A stretch of DNA of 64,000 bases, taken from NCBI RefSeq assembly GCF_963676275.1, contig NZ_OY781091.1, forward strand, positions 4,008,775 through 4,072,774, given 5' to 3'. Numbering within the stretch: the stretch's first letter is position 1; the number at the start of each line of letters is the position of its first letter. Below the pieces are notes generated by a model. The model worked only from the letters and a program-made list of their open reading frames with translations. It did no database searches and had not been told where the DNA came from. The position numbers were made by a program, and so were the translations under genes. The DNA is from an uncultured Cohaesibacter sp. GTDB lineage: Bacteria > Pseudomonadota > Alphaproteobacteria > Rhizobiales > Cohaesibacteraceae. Shown here piece after piece: positions 6,858 to 14,686 of the stretch.

Positions 6858-8444
6858 ATGCCCGCATCTCATGAAATCCGTCGCACCTTCGCGATCATCT
6901 CGCATCCAGACGCCGGTAAGACCACGCTCACAGAAAAGCTGCTCTATTTCGGCGGCGCCATTCGCATGGCCGGTCAGGTCAAGGCCCGCGGTGAGAAGCG
7001 GCGCGCCAAATCCGACTGGATGAAGATCGAGCAGGAACGCGGCATTTCGGTCACCTCCTCGGTGATGACCTTCGAGCATAAGGATCTGATCTTCAACCTG
7101 CTCGACACGCCGGGCCATGAAGACTTTTCCGAAGACACCTACCGCACGCTGACTGCGGTCGACAGCGCCATCATGGTGATCGACGCCTCCAAGGGCATCG
7201 AGGCCCAGACGCTGAAGCTGTTCGAGGTCTGTCGCCTGCGCGACATTCCCATCATCACGCTGGTCAACAAATGCGACCGCGAGGCCAAGGATCCGTTCGA
7301 ACTGATGGACGAGATTCAGGAGACACTGGCGCTTGATGTTTCTCCCATCGTGCTGCCCATCGGCTCCGGCTCGACCTTTCATGGCTGCTACAATGTCACC
7401 AATGGCGACTATTACACCGCCAAGCACAAGGGCGAAGCCTTCGACACCATCGTCGAGACATCGGGCATCGAAGACAGCAAGCTGGACGCCCTTATCGACA
7501 GCCAACTGCTGGAAGAAAGCCGGGAGATGATCGAGCTGGCAACCGGCGGCTATTCCGAATTCGATCTGGAAAGCTACCGCGAAGGCCATCTCTCGCCAGT
7601 CATTTTCGGCTCGGCACTGAAGGATTTCGGCCCCACCGCGCTGCTTGACCTGATTGCAGACATTGCCCCCATGCCACGCCCTTCCCCGACCACGGTTCGC
7701 ACCGTTTCACCTGAGGAAAGCAAGGTATCCGGTTTTGTCTTCAAGGTGCAGGCCAACATGGATTCCCACCATCGCGACCGCGTCGCCTTCATGCGCATCT
7801 GTTCGGGCGACTTCAAGCGCGGCATGAAGCTGCGTCAGGTCCGCACCGGCAAGGATGTGATGGTTCATAGCCCGATCATGTTCTTTGCTCAGGATAGAGA
7901 AATTGCCGATGAGGCGGGACCGGGCGATGTGATCGGCATTCCCAACCATGGCACCATTCGCGTCGGCGACACCTTCACCGAGGGGGAAAATCTGCAATTT
8001 ACCGGCCTGCCCGCCTTTGCGCCTGAAGTCTTGCGCCGTGTTCGCCTGCCCGATGGTACCAAGGTCAAGCAATTGCGCCGTGCCCTTGAAGACCTTGCCG
8101 AGGAAGGCCTGACACAGGTTTTCAAACCCAATATCGGCTCAAACTGGATCATCGGTCTGGTCGGCATCCTGCAGCTGGACGTGCTGAAATCCCGCGCCAA
8201 GACGGAATATGGCGTGGAGATCGATTTCGAACCCATCACCTACAATATGGCGGTTTGGGTCAAGTCCAAGGATGAAGCCAAAATGAAGACCTTCCTGTCG
8301 GCCAACGTCAACAATATCGTCCATGACCGCGAAGGCAGCCCGGTTTTCCTTGCCAAGAGCCAATGGGAAATCGACTTCACCAAGGAACGTCATCCGGACA
8401 TCATTTTCATGAAGACCAGAGAATTGGTGCAAACCGAAGCCTGA
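6858..8444 (+). CDS. prfC: Peptide chain release factor 3
   Basis: RF3 is the translational GTPase that removes RF1 and RF2 from the ribosome after peptide release. The 528-residue length matches the E. coli protein. G1 SHPDAGKTTLTEKLL lies near residue 12, switch II DTPGHEDFSEDTYR near 80 and NKCD near 138. After the GTPase domain come the beta-barrel domain with an MDSHHRDRVAF motif and a C-terminal domain with the FEPITYNMAVW stretch, as in RF3 and unlike EF-G. The GTPase and barrel signatures make the assignment secure. It follows uup after 250 bases with no obvious terminator, so co-transcription is possible. Confidence 0.95.
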   Translation: MPASHEIRRTFAIISHPDAGKTTLTEKLLYFGGAIRMAGQVKARGEKRRAKSDWMKIEQERGISVTSSVMTFEHKDLIFNLLDTPGHEDFSEDTYRTLTAVDSAIMVIDASKGIEAQTLKLFEVCRLRDIPIITLVNKCDREAKDPFELMDEIQETLALDVSPIVLPIGSGSTFHGCYNVTNGDYYTAKHKGEAFDTIVETSGIEDSKLDALIDSQLLEESREMIELATGGYSEFDLESYREGHLSPVIFGSALKDFGPTALLDLIADIAPMPRPSPTTVRTVSPEESKVSGFVFKVQANMDSHHRDRVAFMRICSGDFKRGMKLRQVRTGKDVMVHSPIMFFAQDREIADEAGPGDVIGIPNHGTIRVGDTFTEGENLQFTGLPAFAPEVLRRVRLPDGTKVKQLRRALEDLAEEGLTQVFKPNIGSNWIIGLVGILQLDVLKSRAKTEYGVEIDFEPITYNMAVWVKSKDEAKMKTFLSANVNNIVHDREGSPVFLAKSQWEIDFTKERHPDIIFMKTRELVQTEA

Positions 8445-8473
8445 TGCGCCTTTGCCTTCGGCCTGAAGACAAG

Positions 8474-8507
8474 AAAAAACCGGCGAGGAGCGTCCTGCGC
8501 CGGGTTT
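8474..8507. terminator. Convergent hairpin terminator, prfC / secreted protein
   Basis: An imperfect GC-rich hairpin built from AAACCGGCG and CGCCGGGTTT arms around an 11-base loop. A run of six T follows it on the minus strand and GGGTTTGTT follows it on the plus strand, so it can end both converging genes. Confidence 0.75.
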
Positions 8508-8573
8508 GTTCATTTGAAGGCCTTGACGGGAAGTCATGCTCCCTACGCTTTGGCCCGTTCGATCCGCCCTTGA

Positions 8574-9770
8574 TCAGAATTTCAGGGCATTATCGACCTT
8601 GTTCAGCTTTCGCTCTTCAAAAGTCGCAAAATCCTGTTGCAGGGATGCGCTCTTGAACATGACGACACGAATGTCAAAGCCACCATCGATTTCCGCCACG
8701 TCGGCCTTATAGAAGACATCGCAGGTATCGACAGCCCCCTTCAGCCAGTCTGATGGCTCCGCATCGGGATTGTTGCGCGCTTCTTCGATCCGCTCGAGAA
8801 AAGTTTCGACATCGCTTATACGCGCCATTTTCAGCGCACAATTGGCATTGTCGCTGATGATCCTGTTCGGTGCCGCAATCAGTTCCGGATAGGCTTCAGC
8901 CAGCTTATTCTCGATGACGCTTTTTTCAACATCAACCATCAGCTCGGTATCGGAATCGAGCAGATAGATCGGCTGTCCTTCCTCTCGCAGCGAACGCCCG
9001 ATCGTGAAGCTTTTCTTCACGCCATTCTGTTCACTCGAGCAGGTAACGATCTCTCCGGCACCGGCGCAGTTGCCAAAGCCATTTTCTGCAAGGATACCGG
9101 CGGCATCATCATAATTGACACCAAGCGAGATGCCGGAGAAATTCGGCTCGCCCTTGGCAAAGCTCAGCTTGGTATTGGCGCCAGTCAGAGGTTTCAGGGG
9201 CTTCAGCGGCTTTTGTGATTTGGCATCGACGCTGGTCCCGCTCGTGGGGATCGCCTCTTCAATGACGGCAGCATTATCGGAAGCGCTTGCCTGACTGGAA
9301 CTGGAAGATACGGCTGAATTATCCTCGACAGGAGCCGACGACTGCTGCCGTGAGGCCTCAACCGTATCAAAATGCGCCTGTTCGAATTCAGGCGAAAACA
9401 GCACATCAAACTGATGATTGGTCAACCGGCCGGTTACCGGGAAACCGGCTTCATACTGGAAATCGGAAATCGCCGTGCGGGAACGCCGCCCCAAGACACC
9501 ATCCACATAACCGGCATTATAGCCCAGATAGTTCAGGCGGTGCTGAATATCCATATTATAGCGCACGGCTTCCGGCGTCTGATAGTAACGCGGCGGTGGC
9601 GGTGGTCTGCGAACCGGATGCGGATGAGCGGTAGCGCCCCCCAGCATGAAGCCCAATGTTCCGCCCACAAGGGCACCGGCGACAACATCGCCCCCACCGG
9701 CCAAGGCTGGGCCGGAGGCACTCGTTACGGCAAAGCCGAGCATCAGGGCAGCAATGAATTTCTTTTTCAT
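8574..9770 (-). CDS. Secreted protein: glycine zipper, PG-binding-like repeat, four-Cys domain (paralogue A)
   Basis: A 398-residue exported protein. Residues 1-24 are a signal peptide (KKKFIAALMLGFAVTSA), then a glycine-zipper-like GDVVAGALVGGTLGFMLGG. Residues about 75-130 form a peptidoglycan_binding_1-like repeat (QHRLNYLGYNAGYVDGVLGRR). A Ser/Ala/Gln-rich linker leads to a C-terminal domain of about 190 residues with conserved cysteines in FGNC, VTCS, NANC and VDTC contexts, probably disulphide-bonded in the periplasm. The last residues, KVDNALKF, are shared with the gene at 10126-11457. I recognise no function for the C-terminal domain. ATG at 9770 has GGAG eight bases upstream; the longer frame to 9860 lacks signal-peptide logic. 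Confidence 0.8.
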   Translation of the reverse strand: MKKKFIAALMLGFAVTSASGPALAGGGDVVAGALVGGTLGFMLGGATAHPHPVRRPPPPPRYYQTPEAVRYNMDIQHRLNYLGYNAGYVDGVLGRRSRTAISDFQYEAGFPVTGRLTNHQFDVLFSPEFEQAHFDTVEASRQQSSAPVEDNSAVSSSSSQASASDNAAVIEEAIPTSGTSVDAKSQKPLKPLKPLTGANTKLSFAKGEPNFSGISLGVNYDDAAGILAENGFGNCAGAGEIVTCSSEQNGVKKSFTIGRSLREEGQPIYLLDSDTELMVDVEKSVIENKLAEAYPELIAAPNRIISDNANCALKMARISDVETFLERIEEARNNPDAEPSDWLKGAVDTCDVFYKADVAEIDGGFDIRVVMFKSASLQQDFATFEERKLNKVDNALKF

Positions 9771-10002
9771 GGTCAATCTCCAGCCAACATCGTCGCCCCT
9801 CCCTGTCTGGAGGCACGCTCTATTCTGCAATTGCTCTGGGCGACATGTTAAAAGCAACAATGGGCATTATTATGGCATTGCCCATAAAAGAACCGCGTCC
9901 TTGCAAAAAGCAAAAGCAGGACGTCCGGCGCAAACGCTGGCAGCAAAATTGCCGTGCCCGAAGCAGAAGAAAGCAAGCTCCAAGCGTCAAGCATCAAGAC
10001 AG
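9771..10002. other. Leader of paralogue A with a 7-bp inverted repeat
   Basis: This stretch separates the two paralogous secreted-protein genes. It contains ATGGGCA / TGCCCAT arms at 9860-9866 and 9879-9885, about 90 bases upstream of the paralogue A start, which could be an operator or a leader hairpin. No gene is visible. Confidence 0.4.
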
Positions 10003-10046
10003 AAAAACCCGGCCAAGACATGACAGGACATGTCTGCACCGGGTTT
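10003..10046 (-). terminator. Hairpin terminator of paralogue B
   Basis: Nested arms AAAACCCGG / CCGGGTTTT with an inner AGACATG / CATGTCT stem. On the minus strand the hairpin is followed by TTTTTC, downstream of the gene at 10126-11457. Confidence 0.85.
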
Positions 10047-10125
10047 TCAAATGTCGCAAACCGAAATGGCGAAGGTGCGACAAAGGCGATCAACGCCTCT
10101 GCCCGACCACTTCGAACCGCCCATA

Positions 10126-11457
10126 TCAGAATTTCAGGGCATTATTGACCTTGTTGATATTCTGCTGGCCAAATCTGGCAATCTCGCCATCCAGATAGGA
10201 AGCGTCAAACATCACCACGCGCACGCGATATTGCTCGCCATCATGGTTGACATTGACCTTGTAGAAGGTATGGCAAACCGCAAGAGACTGTTCCAGCCAC
10301 TCATTGATCGGTTTTTCCTGCCCGCGAAGCTGCTCAAGCGCGCTGGCAAAGGCATCAATATTGTTCAGATCAGCCATATAGGCGGCGCATTCGGCACTGT
10401 TGCTCAGAATATGCTGGGGCGCTGCTGCAATCTCGGGATAGGCCTCGGCGATCTTTGCATCGATCACAGACTGATCAACATCGACCTTCAAAAGGGTTGT
10501 CCGGTCCATATAATAGACGGGGACATCGCCCTGTTGTAGCCCGCGCGCCAGCCGGATCGTCTCGCGCACCCCATTGCGCTGGGCCGCGCAGGAAATGAAT
10601 TCTTCCTGTCCCTGACAATTCTCATAGCCATTCTGCTCAAGTTTGGCCAAGCCGGAAGCAAAAGCCTCCCCCAGCTTGATGTCAAGGATAGCGGGCTGCC
10701 CGGACGCGAAAGAGAGATCGGTATTCTGCGTACTGATCGCAGAACCGCCCGCTCCTGCTCCCGGCATGGCACTATCGTTTGACACAGCCGGCATGCCGGT
10801 CACCGCCGCTGCCGTCCCCATTCCGGCGGAGCCGCCTGCCATCGGCTGACCGAATGATGCCGCCGGAGTGCCAAAGCTTGGCAACGTGCCGTTAAACTGG
10901 GCATTGGCTGGCGTTCCCACCTGCAACTGATTCACATTGGAACCACCAATGGCGGGAAATGCAGCCCCCGACGCCCCGGAACTTGTCATGCCATTGCTGA
11001 TAGCGGGAAAAGCTGCGCCTGCTCCGGGGATGACGGGCGCATTGCCCATCGCCTGCCCCTGACCGCTGGACAATTGATACAAAAGCGCGGTCTGGTCATT
11101 GGTCAACCGACCGGTAGGGGCCAGATCATTATCTCTCTGGAATGCGGAAATGGCCGCCCGAGACCGCCGCCCCATCACCCCGTCTGGGGTACCGGCATCA
11201 TAGCCGAGATCATTCAGCCGCTGCTGGATATCTCGATTATTCTCCCGCTGAACGTTATCGACAGGCCGGGAGGAAGAGGAAGAACTGTATTTCCGCTTGC
11301 TCTTTGCCTTGGCCTTGTTGGCACCGCTTGCGATCAGCCCGACAGCTCCGCCGACGATGGCTCCGGCCAGAAAATCTCCACTACCGGCATAAGCCGGTGC
11401 ACTCATGGGAGCGCATCCGAGCATATAGGCAGCGACAAGCAAAAGTCTCTTTTTCAT
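10126..11457 (-). CDS. Secreted protein: glycine zipper, PG-binding-like repeat, four-Cys domain (paralogue B)
   Basis: A 443-residue exported paralogue of the gene at 8574-9770 with the same order of parts: signal peptide (residues 1-24), glycine zipper GDFLAGAIVGGAVGLIASG, basic stretch, a peptidoglycan_binding_1-like repeat (QRLNDLGYDAGTPDGVMGRR) at about 78-125, a long Gly/Ala/Met/Pro-rich linker (about 130-250), and a C-terminal domain with cysteines in YENC, ISCA, SAEC and LAVC contexts ending in KVNNALKF. A cysteine near residue 15 in MLGC is a poor lipobox, so lipidation is uncertain. ATG at 11457 is preceded by GTG and by AAGGA. It starts 23 bases after the upstream gene, so the two are probably one operon. 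Confidence 0.8.
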   Translation of the reverse strand: MKKRLLLVAAYMLGCAPMSAPAYAGSGDFLAGAIVGGAVGLIASGANKAKAKSKRKYSSSSSSRPVDNVQRENNRDIQQRLNDLGYDAGTPDGVMGRRSRAAISAFQRDNDLAPTGRLTNDQTALLYQLSSGQGQAMGNAPVIPGAGAAFPAISNGMTSSGASGAAFPAIGGSNVNQLQVGTPANAQFNGTLPSFGTPAASFGQPMAGGSAGMGTAAAVTGMPAVSNDSAMPGAGAGGSAISTQNTDLSFASGQPAILDIKLGEAFASGLAKLEQNGYENCQGQEEFISCAAQRNGVRETIRLARGLQQGDVPVYYMDRTTLLKVDVDQSVIDAKIAEAYPEIAAAPQHILSNSAECAAYMADLNNIDAFASALEQLRGQEKPINEWLEQSLAVCHTFYKVNVNHDGEQYRVRVVMFDASYLDGEIARFGQQNINKVNNALKF

Positions 11458-11480
11458 CACACTGTCCTTCTAACGATCCA

Positions 11481-12494
11481 TCAGCGCTGCTGCTGAAATG
11501 ACAGGAGCCACTGGGCTGTTTCAACATCCCCCTTGGCTGCAAATTGGGAAACCATCACCTCGAGATGGGGGTGACTGCGCGCCAGTGCCGAAACCAGCTG
11601 CACACAGGCATTGGGGAAGGGTCTGTAATAGACGCGACCATCGGGATCCGGCTTGGCTGTAAGATTTTTGGCCCGAAAATTCTCGCGCAGATCCATCAAA
11701 TAGCTCAGATAGTCAAAGCTGGGCGCGAATTTCTGCGCCGTATGGGAAATGAAGGAACAGATCAGCTCGTCCCTGCGGCTCAGCGCCAGAGCATCCAGTT
11801 CAAATCTGTGATATCGGCCATAGTCATCTTCATTCACATTGCCGAGAGAAATGGCCAGCATATCCATGAAATGGAAGGAGGTGACAGACCCGGTATCCAG
11901 CGGCAACACGATTTTGCGCATGTCCGGATCAGCCAGCACGCTGGGATCATAAAGCTCGTCACCAAACACCATCCCGAGCGCAGTCAGTTGGTTGATGTTG
12001 GCCAGACTATACATCTTGCTGCCCAGACGATTGACGATCAGGAAAGGTGCGGGCACCTTATTCTCGTAAACCGCATTGAGATTGAGTCCCCGCTGGGCAT
12101 AAAACTGGAACAGCGCCACAGAGTGTCCTCTGGCGAGCTGATTGAGCAAATAGCAGGGCGTATCATATTTGTCGCTTCCCGGCCGACGACACATGAACTG
12201 GCGATTGAGGTCAATCGGTTTGAGGGCATTGAGATATTGAAATATCTGCGGCAGCGCCAGAACCTCATCATTCAACTTCTTGACGGCCATATGGAAATAG
12301 ATCTCCGAAGTGTCGAGATCTTCCTGCCGCACATATCCTTGCCGCAAATAGAAATTGGCCTGCGTGAAATTCTTCGTTTCCACAAAACTCGTAAAGGCGG
12401 CCAGATGCTCTGAAGAGGCGCTTGCTGAAAAAGACCATGAAATCAGTCCGAAAAACAACAACAAACCGGGCTTGAGACGTCGAAGGAAATTCAT
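11481..12494 (-). CDS. Secreted protein of unknown function
   Basis: A 337-residue protein with a basic start and a hydrophobic segment (about residues 9-25, cleavage near SASA), so probably periplasmic. The body is mostly helical, with FTQANFYLRQGYV near 45 and GLNLNAVYENKVPAPFLIVN near 135, which faintly recalls degenerate ankyrin-like helix pairs; I would not call it that. It has several cysteines. ATG at 12494 has TGGAG nine bases upstream. It is the first gene of an apparent two-gene operon with paralogue B, so the two products may work together in the envelope. No family recognised. Confidence 0.7.
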   Translation of the reverse strand: MNFLRRLKPGLLLFFGLISWSFSASASSEHLAAFTSFVETKNFTQANFYLRQGYVRQEDLDTSEIYFHMAVKKLNDEVLALPQIFQYLNALKPIDLNRQFMCRRPGSDKYDTPCYLLNQLARGHSVALFQFYAQRGLNLNAVYENKVPAPFLIVNRLGSKMYSLANINQLTALGMVFGDELYDPSVLADPDMRKIVLPLDTGSVTSFHFMDMLAISLGNVNEDDYGRYHRFELDALALSRRDELICSFISHTAQKFAPSFDYLSYLMDLRENFRAKNLTAKPDPDGRVYYRPFPNACVQLVSALARSHPHLEVMVSQFAAKGDVETAQWLLSFQQQR

Positions 12495-12568
12495 TCGAAC
12501 ACTCCAAGATTTTAAAAATGAAAAAAACAACTCCTGTTCGCTTATATCATCAATTTTCAGAAAGCATC

Positions 12569-12600
12569 AAAAAACCCGGAAGCATTGCTCCCGGGTTTTA
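12569..12600 (-). terminator. ilvD terminator
   Basis: AAAACCCGG / CCGGGTTTT arms around a GC-containing loop, followed on the minus strand by a T-run (TTTTTTG), 36 bases past the ilvD stop codon. Confidence 0.85.
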
Positions 12601-12635
12601 CACAACCAATGAAGGAAAAAACGCAAATTGCGTTA

Positions 12636-14489
12636 TCAATCCGTTCTTTTCAACCCGGTAAGGTCTCTTACGGCCCCCTTGTCGGCAGATGTTGCCATCA
12701 GGGCATAGGCCTGAAGTGAACGGGAGACGATGCGCTCGCGCGTCTCTGCCGGTTTCCAGCCCTCAGCACCCTTGCCATTCATCGCAGCGCGGCGCTCATC
12801 CAGCACCGCGTCGGAGACGGCGACATTCATCGAGCGGTTCGGGATGTCGATTTCAATGCGATCGCCCTCCTCGATCAGGCCAATCGCGCCACCTGCGGCA
12901 GCTTCTGGCGAAACATGACCGATGGACAGTCCCGAGGTACCGCCGGAGAAGCGGCCATCGGTGATCAAAGCGCATTCCTTGCCCAGTCCCATGGATTTGA
13001 GATAGGAGGTCGGATAGAGCATTTCCTGCATGCCCGGACCACCACGCGGCCCTTCATAGCGGATGATGACCACATCGCCAGACTGGATCTTGCCGCCGAT
13101 GATGCCTTTCACAGCCGCTTCCTGACTTTCAAAAATCCGGGCCGGACCGGAGAATTTCAGAATGCTTTCGTCCACGCCAGCGGTTTTGACGATACAGCCA
13201 TCCAGCGCGATATTGCCGAACAGAACCGCAAGGCCGCCATCCTGACTATAGGCATGTTCCTTGTCACGAATGCAGCCGTCGGCGCGATCCTTGTCCAGCT
13301 CCTTGTAGCGGCTGGCCTGCGAGAAGGCCTCGATGGAACGCACCCCGCCCGGAGCCGCCTTGTAGAGCGTTTCCACCTCGGCGCTTGGTGCGCGCATGAT
13401 GTCATAAAGCTCGATGGCATCGCCAAGGGTCTTCGTATGCACCGTGCCGCAATCCCGATTGAGAAGACCTGCCCGGTCCAGCTCGCCCAGAATGCCGAAG
13501 ATACCACCGGCGCGGTGGCAATTCTCGATGTGATATTTCTGCGTTGTCGGTGCCAGCTTGCACAGGTTCGGTACCTTGCGCGACAACCGGTCGATGTCGG
13601 CCATGGTGAAATCGACCTCGCCTTCCTGAGCAATCGCCAGGAGATGCAGAACCGTGTTGGTCGATCCGCCCATGGCGATATCCAGTGTCATGGCATTCTC
13701 GAAGGCACCGAAGGTGGCGATATTGCGCGGCAGGACGCTTTCATCCTCCTGCTTGTAATAGCGCTTGCACATCTCGACCGCCTTGCGGCCAGCTTCAAGA
13801 AACAGCTCCTTGCGGTCCGCATGGGTGGCAACGACGGTGCCATTGCCCGGCAATCCAAGCCCCAGCGCCTCGGCAAGACAGTTCATCGAGTTGGCCGTGA
13901 ACATGCCCGAGCAGGAACCACAGGTCGGACAGGCAGCTTCCTCAATCTGCGCCACGGTCTCGTCCGAGACCTGCGGATCGGCCCCCATAATCATGGCGTC
14001 GATCAGGTCAAGACCATGGTCCATACCCGGAATACGCCCCGCTTCCATCGGGCCACCGGAGACAAAGATTGCGGGAATATTGAGCCGCATGGCAGCCATC
14101 ATCATGCCCGGTGTGATCTTGTCGCAGTTGGAAATGCAGACCATGGCGTCGACGCAATGGGCATTGACCATATATTCAACCGAGTCGGCAATGATCTCGC
14201 GCGAAGGCAGCGAATAGAGCATGCCGTCATGGCCCATGGCGATGCCGTCATCAACGGCGATGGTATTCATTTCCTTGGCGATGCCGCCTGCCGCCTCGAT
14301 TTCGCGGGCCACCATCTGCCCCAGATCCTTCAGATGCACATGCCCGGGCACAAACTGGGTGAAGGAGTTGACCACCGCGATAATCGGCTTGCCAAAATCC
14401 TCATTGGCAACACCGGTCGCACGCCAGAGCGCACGGGCACCAGCCATATTGCGGCCATGGGTCGAAGTCTTGGAACGATAGTCAGGCAT
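12636..14489 (-). CDS. ilvD: Dihydroxy-acid dehydratase
   Basis: The enzyme dehydrates 2,3-dihydroxy-3-methylbutanoate and its homologue to the 2-keto acids that become valine, leucine and isoleucine. The 617-residue length matches E. coli IlvD (616). Iron-sulphur cysteines appear in [12 protein letters not shown] near residue 122 and [17 protein letters not shown] near 195, followed by a [13 protein letters not shown] loop near 270 and the C-terminal [15 protein letters not shown] signature. ATG at 14489 is chosen because GAAGGA lies seven bases upstream and the protein then begins [17 protein letters not shown], as in the family. It stands alone, with its own terminator; no other ilv gene is nearby. 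Confidence 0.97.
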
Positions 14490-14686
14490 TGTGAAGTCCT
14501 TCAGAGGAAAGGTTGACACTCGTCAGTCAAGCGAGATGAGTCAGCATGTGCGGGTCCTTGCGTCACAAGACCATGGCCAAGGACGCAATCGGTTGCCCCT
14601 TGTTTAAACCAAAGCAGAAAGCACTGACAATAGCATTTCTTTCAAAAACTGTATCATCTGCGCACAAATCGAAAAGAAAATTGCAT

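Follow-up and report, generated by a model that had tools for sequence, protein, structure and literature searches.

The window, the whole stretch of 64,000 nucleotides that was analysed, comes from an uncultured Cohaesibacter sp. with a single-contig genome of 5,033,865 bases. Between the flanking genes prfC and ilvD (these names, like those of uup, trpB and speA, were given by recognition and are presumptive) it contains three minus-strand open reading frames at the positions originally given, hereafter called P0001, P0002 and P0003 (Table 1). The signal peptides of the three proteins were judged by eye and their secretion is presumed; in-frame start codons are also present upstream.

P0001 and P0002 are paralogues, as had been proposed from their shared order of parts, and could be aligned end to end with 35 % amino acid identity (E 2e-75). 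Both matched the peptidoglycan-binding family PG_binding_1 (PF01471) above its curated cut-off, both carry four cysteines at corresponding positions of the C-terminal domain, and their C-termini are nearly identical (KVDNALKF in P0001 and KVNNALKF in P0002). P0001 contains exactly four cysteines, which from their spacing would be expected to pair as 235-244 and 311-350, and P0002 has a fifth, Cys 15, inside the presumed signal peptide. The linkers have strongly diverged, as predicted, differing in length and showing a similarity which was reached by 61 of 200 shuffles. The glycine zipper ascribed to both proteins was recovered as a hydrophobic stretch of 19 residues with two to three GxxxG patterns, but neither protein matched a Pfam glycine-zipper family at E values up to 1, and the term is therefore kept as a descriptive name only. 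P0003 lies upstream of P0002, separated from it by the expected 23 nucleotides (11458-11480). A promoter and terminator scan of positions 8400-12760 gave no more signals than were found in shuffled sequence.

Table 1 Features of the prfC-ilvD region, with positions in the window
Feature	Position	Strand	Description
prfC	6858..8444	+	528-aa flanking gene, one edge of the variable slot
P0001 (A type)	8574..9770	-	398 aa; signal peptide, glycine-rich hydrophobic helix, PG_binding_1, 72-residue linker, four-Cys C-terminal domain, LKF end
Four-Cys C-terminal domain of P0001, aa 198-398	8577..9179	-	Cys 235, 244, 311, 350
PG_binding_1 match in P0001, aa 74-123	9402..9551	-	41.2 bits, cut-off 23
P0002 (B type)	10126..11457	-	443 aa; order of parts as in P0001; 116-residue linker with Phe-Pro motifs
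Four-Cys C-terminal domain of P0002, aa 244-443	10129..10728	-	Cys 281, 290, 357, 395
Linker of P0002, aa 128-243	10729..11076	-	
Second Phe-Pro motif of P0002	10948..10962	-	AFPAI, 17 residues after the first
First Phe-Pro motif of P0002	10999..11013	-	AFPAI
PG_binding_1 match in P0002, aa 72-124	11086..11244	-	53.6 bits, cut-off 23
Glycine-rich hydrophobic helix of P0002, aa 25-47	11317..11385	-	After the presumed signal peptide; limits by eye
P0003	11481..12494	-	337 aa, presumed secreted; conserved Cys 102, 114, 246, 297; first gene of the P0003-P0002 pair
ilvD	12636..14519	-	627-aa flanking gene, opposite edge of the variable slot

The PF01471 matches make P0001 and P0002 putative peptidoglycan binders. 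The match covers only about 50 residues and no attached enzyme domain was found, and the C-terminal domain and P0003 fall in no Pfam family. The genome contains PG_binding_1 at 15 places in 8 loci; of the seven loci read besides that of P0002, four yielded the protein, and none of these four resembled the P0001/P0002 family.

The C-terminal domain had been described as belonging to no known family, and profile and sequence searches of Pfam, NCBIfam and PDB sequences bore this out, giving no significant match. A Pfam scan of 18 members of the domain gave scattered families, the best with E 0.021 and none above its curated cut-off, and the best PDB sequence had E 0.15. The NCBIfam matches lay mostly in the PG_binding_1 region, with a few weak ones elsewhere outside the C-terminal domain, and all were under the cut-off. 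A search of a collection of open-access papers for Cohaesibacter together with peptidoglycan binding found none, and the combination of glycine zipper, peptidoglycan-binding domain and periplasm led there only to papers on type IV secretion and flagellar stators. The searches of Pfam and NCBIfam gave no model for either the domain or P0003, two protein families that can now be defined by their alignments, cysteines, distribution and gene partnership.

All 22 complete C-terminal domains contained the four cysteines, with eight residues in every case separating the first two, and all ended in [LI][KTS]F, i.e. [L/I]-x-F, preceded by a tail that was variable in length and sequence. The copy from G043, the gene of which is cut at its 5' end by the contig start, ends in LRF, in agreement with the complete copies. 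Outer membrane proteins have a C-terminal consensus with a terminal Phe and a hydrophobic residue two positions before it. A terminal Phe with a hydrophobic residue at that distance was present in 22 of 22 complete domains; no beta-barrel is evident in the four-cysteine proteins. The final Phe also resembles the carboxyl ends of MucE and of outer membrane protein signals (PMC8545111 and PMC3582582), and reading of the C-termini of outer membrane proteins and MucE by AlgW is described in PMC8545111. By analogy with this precedent, the four-cysteine domain could be an envelope sensor, its exposed [L/I]-x-F end being recognized by a periplasmic protease with a PDZ domain. The constancy of the end after tails so different in length and sequence, including that of G043, is consistent with such a role; however, the end might do no more than pack onto the domain, and we consider the sensor unlikely.

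The suggestion that the system is specific to these bacteria was not supported, since 9 of the 379 genomes sampled from the order outside the genus Cohaesibacter carried the C-terminal domain. The wider profile detected it in 20 of the 397 genomes sampled from the whole order (18 in the first profile search of the same genomes), including 11 of the 18 genomes of the genus; a first scan of genome contigs with P0002 alone had given no match. In the complete distant members a PG_binding_1-like motif is joined to the C-terminal domain by a linker that ranges from 23 to 187 residues in length. In a class-wide search of 347 genomes, clear matches to the domain came from the genome of the window only; two weak partial profile matches (E about 0.002) were seen elsewhere in the class, in G477 and G739 (L108, L109). 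Redundant members from the genus and the copies from G357 were excluded from alignments A4 and A9.

Tandem copies of four-cysteine proteins also occur in G334 (three) and G357 (two), which belong to the same genus. A presumed secreted protein of approximately 421 amino acids, without a match to the P0003 profile, is encoded between the tandem copies in both genomes (L068:9722-10987, L073:8964-10232). In the second copy of G357 (L073:10672-11778) an in-frame TAG close to the C-terminus leaves the open reading frame without the last residues of the domain. Carriage on plasmids was also considered and rejected: a tblastn search of 72,556 plasmid records with P0002 hit 17 of them, covering no more than 23 % of the query and only within or immediately after the part with PG_binding_1, and P0003 and two of its homologues had no match.

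Eight strong P0003 homologues, from three lineages, were present in the 397 sampled genomes of the order, P0003 itself included. Three were in the 18 genomes of the genus (that of the window, G002 and G010) and five in further genomes of the order, namely G056 (35 % identity over 320 residues, E 5e-63) and, in another family, G162, G188, G209 and G321 (E about 1e-51). A weak ninth match, in G094 (E 0.006), was set aside from the counts. In the 347 genomes of the class P0003 was found only in the genome of the window, and among 15 genomes of the family of G162 only in the three already known; the family of G056 was represented by one genome, so that these searches added no lineage to the three. 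All eight homologues retain the four cysteines.

The link suggested between the third gene and the second was seen in all three lineages. Each of the eight P0003 homologues lies directly upstream of, and on the same strand as, a gene for a protein in which a signal peptide and a glycine-rich helix precede a PG_binding_1-like domain and a linker, at a distance of 23 (the window), 25, 25 or 13 nucleotides or, in G162, G188, G209 and G321, with an overlap of 17 nucleotides. The surroundings of the pair differ between the three lineages. PF01471 was confirmed in P0002 and in the partner from G162 (38.7 bits, above the cut-off of 23, making this too a putative peptidoglycan binder), the domain in the other partners being PG_binding_1-like. 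This pairing with a secreted PG_binding_1/linker protein, in eight of eight strong homologues from three lineages, is the new observation here. Four of the eight partners (G162, G188, G209 and G321) have no four-cysteine domain, and the P0001-type proteins have the domain without a P0003 beside them; P0003 thus tracks the anchor-linker protein and not the four-cysteine domain. The partners without the domain share another conserved C-terminal stretch, QFVEINGQRFYMN (L101:5842-6966, L102:5929-7233, L103:6320-7357, L104:6585-7676).

P0003 had no match in Pfam, either at E up to 1 or up to 5, no match among PDB sequences and no significant match in NCBIfam, and thus no detectable known binding fold. 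Ankyrin-like stretches were seen by eye, but hhalign to the designed ankyrin consensus scored 13.9, compared with up to 15.9 for 40 column shuffles. The corresponding scores were 13.2 for TPR (shuffles up to 15.2) and 7.1 for Sel1 (shuffles up to 15.3), and P0003 matched neither in Pfam. Because no score was better than those of shuffled columns, all three assignments were rejected.

The linkers of the partnered proteins contain a Phe-Pro motif, [AST]FPx[ILVM], which was defined after the linkers had been inspected. All eight partnered linkers contained it, with 16 copies over a total of 1549 residues, as against none of the 18 unpartnered ones (1235 residues), the partnered linkers coming from three lineages that may not be independent. 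The 26 proteins compared leave out the copy from G043, truncated by the contig start, and the interrupted second copy from G357, which is unpartnered and has a linker without FP. One unpartnered linker, that of G016, contains a single plain FP. The count of full motifs was reached in none of 5000 within-linker shuffles for P0002, G002, G010, G056 and G162; G188, G209 and G321 have the full motif once each, with a shuffle fraction of about 0.05. For plain FP the fractions were 0.06-0.07 in the genus, which is weak, 0.003 in G056 and at most 0.0012 in G162, G188, G209 and G321.

Spacing was tested in five of the eight partnered linkers. Pairs of FP 17-18 residues apart were more frequent than under random placement, with fractions of 0.03 (P0002), 0.03 (G002), 0.0014 (G056), 0.0002 (G162) and 0.0011 (G188), which rose to 0.07, 0.07, 0.004, 0.002 and 0.02, respectively, with a spacing window of 16-20. 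TRF found no tandem DNA array in the linker of P0002, and in that of G056 nothing beyond 27 nt made up of a repeated 12-nt unit; a tandem DNA repeat of 51 nt in the linker of G162 accounts for part of its FP spacing. When six of the 26 linkers were compared with each other, shuffles reached the observed similarity in 1 of 200 cases for P0002 and G162, 0 of 200 for G002 and G162, and 1 of 200 for G056 and G162, in 23 of 200 for P0002 and G056 and 61 of 200 for G002 and G056, and in 0 of 200 for the linker of P0001 and that of G056. Since some partnered linkers from different lineages are thus more alike than shuffles, the Phe-Pro motifs may be descended from one ancestral linker.

The conserved pairing and the distribution of the motif point to a possible periplasmic complex, made by P0003 and P0002 as a conserved two-gene unit, in which P0002 would be a wall-bound tether and its Phe-Pro linker the docking site of P0003. 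P0002 would be exported, held near a membrane by its glycine-rich hydrophobic helix and bound to peptidoglycan through PG_binding_1, exposing a flexible linker along which Phe-Pro motifs recur at intervals of about 17-18 residues. P0003, presumably a disulfide-bonded periplasmic protein, would dock on these motifs and so be held at the cell wall. The four-cysteine domain would be a separate, optional module terminating the tether, its own carboxyl end being the invariant [L/I]-x-F after a tail of variable length, and P0001 a paralogue that retained the anchor and the end module, without motifs and partner. We give this reading a probability of a little under 0.4; the motif distribution is a lead to docking and not proof of it.

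The same pairs could also reflect a common process for which P0003 and the PG_binding_1 protein are co-expressed but make no contact, the Phe-Pro repeats being inherited features of a low-complexity linker. Ancestry can explain the motifs where linkers of different lineages are alike beyond shuffles, Phe is commoner in partnered linkers, and the linker of G162 holds DNA tandem repeats. On the other hand, the full motifs lie far above within-linker shuffles in five of the linkers and the FP spacing is similar across lineages, which suggests that the motifs have been kept by selection. Co-expression without contact is a serious possibility, although short of even odds.

Should the Phe-Pro motifs prove to be docking sites, the system would amount to a wall-attached scaffold of short linear motifs in the periplasm. 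The P0003-P0002 pair is a candidate for an undescribed cell-envelope complex, its partnership being kept in distant relatives, and envelope partners are still being discovered in Rhizobiales. In Pal of the Tol-Pal system, one side of the linker is an anchor. The likeness of P0002 to Pal, in which a disordered linker adjoins the peptidoglycan-binding part (PMC12826056), would be one of layout only, and the domains differ. Rhizobiales include pole-growing bacteria, mostly without MreB, and according to PMC7327166 RgsD of Sinorhizobium meliloti is a novel periplasmic peptidoglycan-binding protein and RgsF a TPR/Sel1 protein. The present proteins can be likened to these polar-growth proteins, by description only, as putative periplasmic and apparently non-enzymatic peptidoglycan binders from the same order; unlike RgsB-RgsF, reported as well conserved in Rhizobiales (PMC7327166), the C-terminal domain was found in 20 of the 397 genomes sampled.

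In each of the ten other genomes of the genus that have the domain, the single gene or the pair adjoins ilvD, and prfC is on the other side in eight; in G016 other open reading frames lie between the four-cysteine gene and prfC, approximately 3 kb away, and in G006 prfC was not found in the stretch fetched. The content of the slot differs: it is a single P0001-type gene in eight of the ten, P0003-P0002 without P0001 in G002 and G010, and all three genes in the genome of the window. Seven genomes of the genus are without the domain. In five of these prfC was found, and in four of the five the slot up to ilvD is filled by genes without a match to the P0001/P0002 family; in the other, G017, there was no ilvD within the 16 kb fetched.

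Near-identical species carry either the P0001-type gene or P0003-P0002 in this one prfC-ilvD slot. G003, with an A-type slot of about 1.5 kb, grouped with G002 and G010 (100 %) when housekeeping proteins, at most four per genome, were used to build a tree, and its flanks are 94.6 % and 96.8 % identical to those of G002, the slot of which, with P0003 and the B-type gene, is about 2.6 kb; the switch at the slot borders is sharp. In a combined tree of PG_binding_1 and the C-terminal domain all twelve proteins of the genus formed one clade (100/99), within which A and B were separate clades (91/94 and 92/90). In the tree of the C-terminal domain alone, A and B were not resolved, and the distant members were on long branches.

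The difference between such close relatives, with flanks 94-97 % identical and sharp borders, and the patchy presence in the genus would fit a variable surface or competition locus at which P0001-type and P0003-P0002 cassettes are swapped under diversifying selection. However, A, B and P0003 occur together in the genome of the window, and A and B form separate clades within the genus; swapping is judged improbable. Because one genome holds all three genes, differential loss from an ancestral A-B-P0003 array explains the same pattern and is its simplest account. Joined with the docking reading, these results would outline a modular periplasmic docking system of Hyphomicrobiales, with a peptidoglycan-anchored tether, a degenerate Phe-Pro array of 17-18-residue units recognized by secreted partners of a new class (P0003), an optional and exchangeable end module, and cassettes alternating at one slot between sister species; in this full form the proposal is doubtful, if conceivable.

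On the far side of prfC, G002, G003 and G010 have two open reading frames (138 and 302 amino acids) between uup and prfC that were unmatched among the open reading frames of the window (L022:5004-6237, L031:5093-6326, L023:11063-12296).
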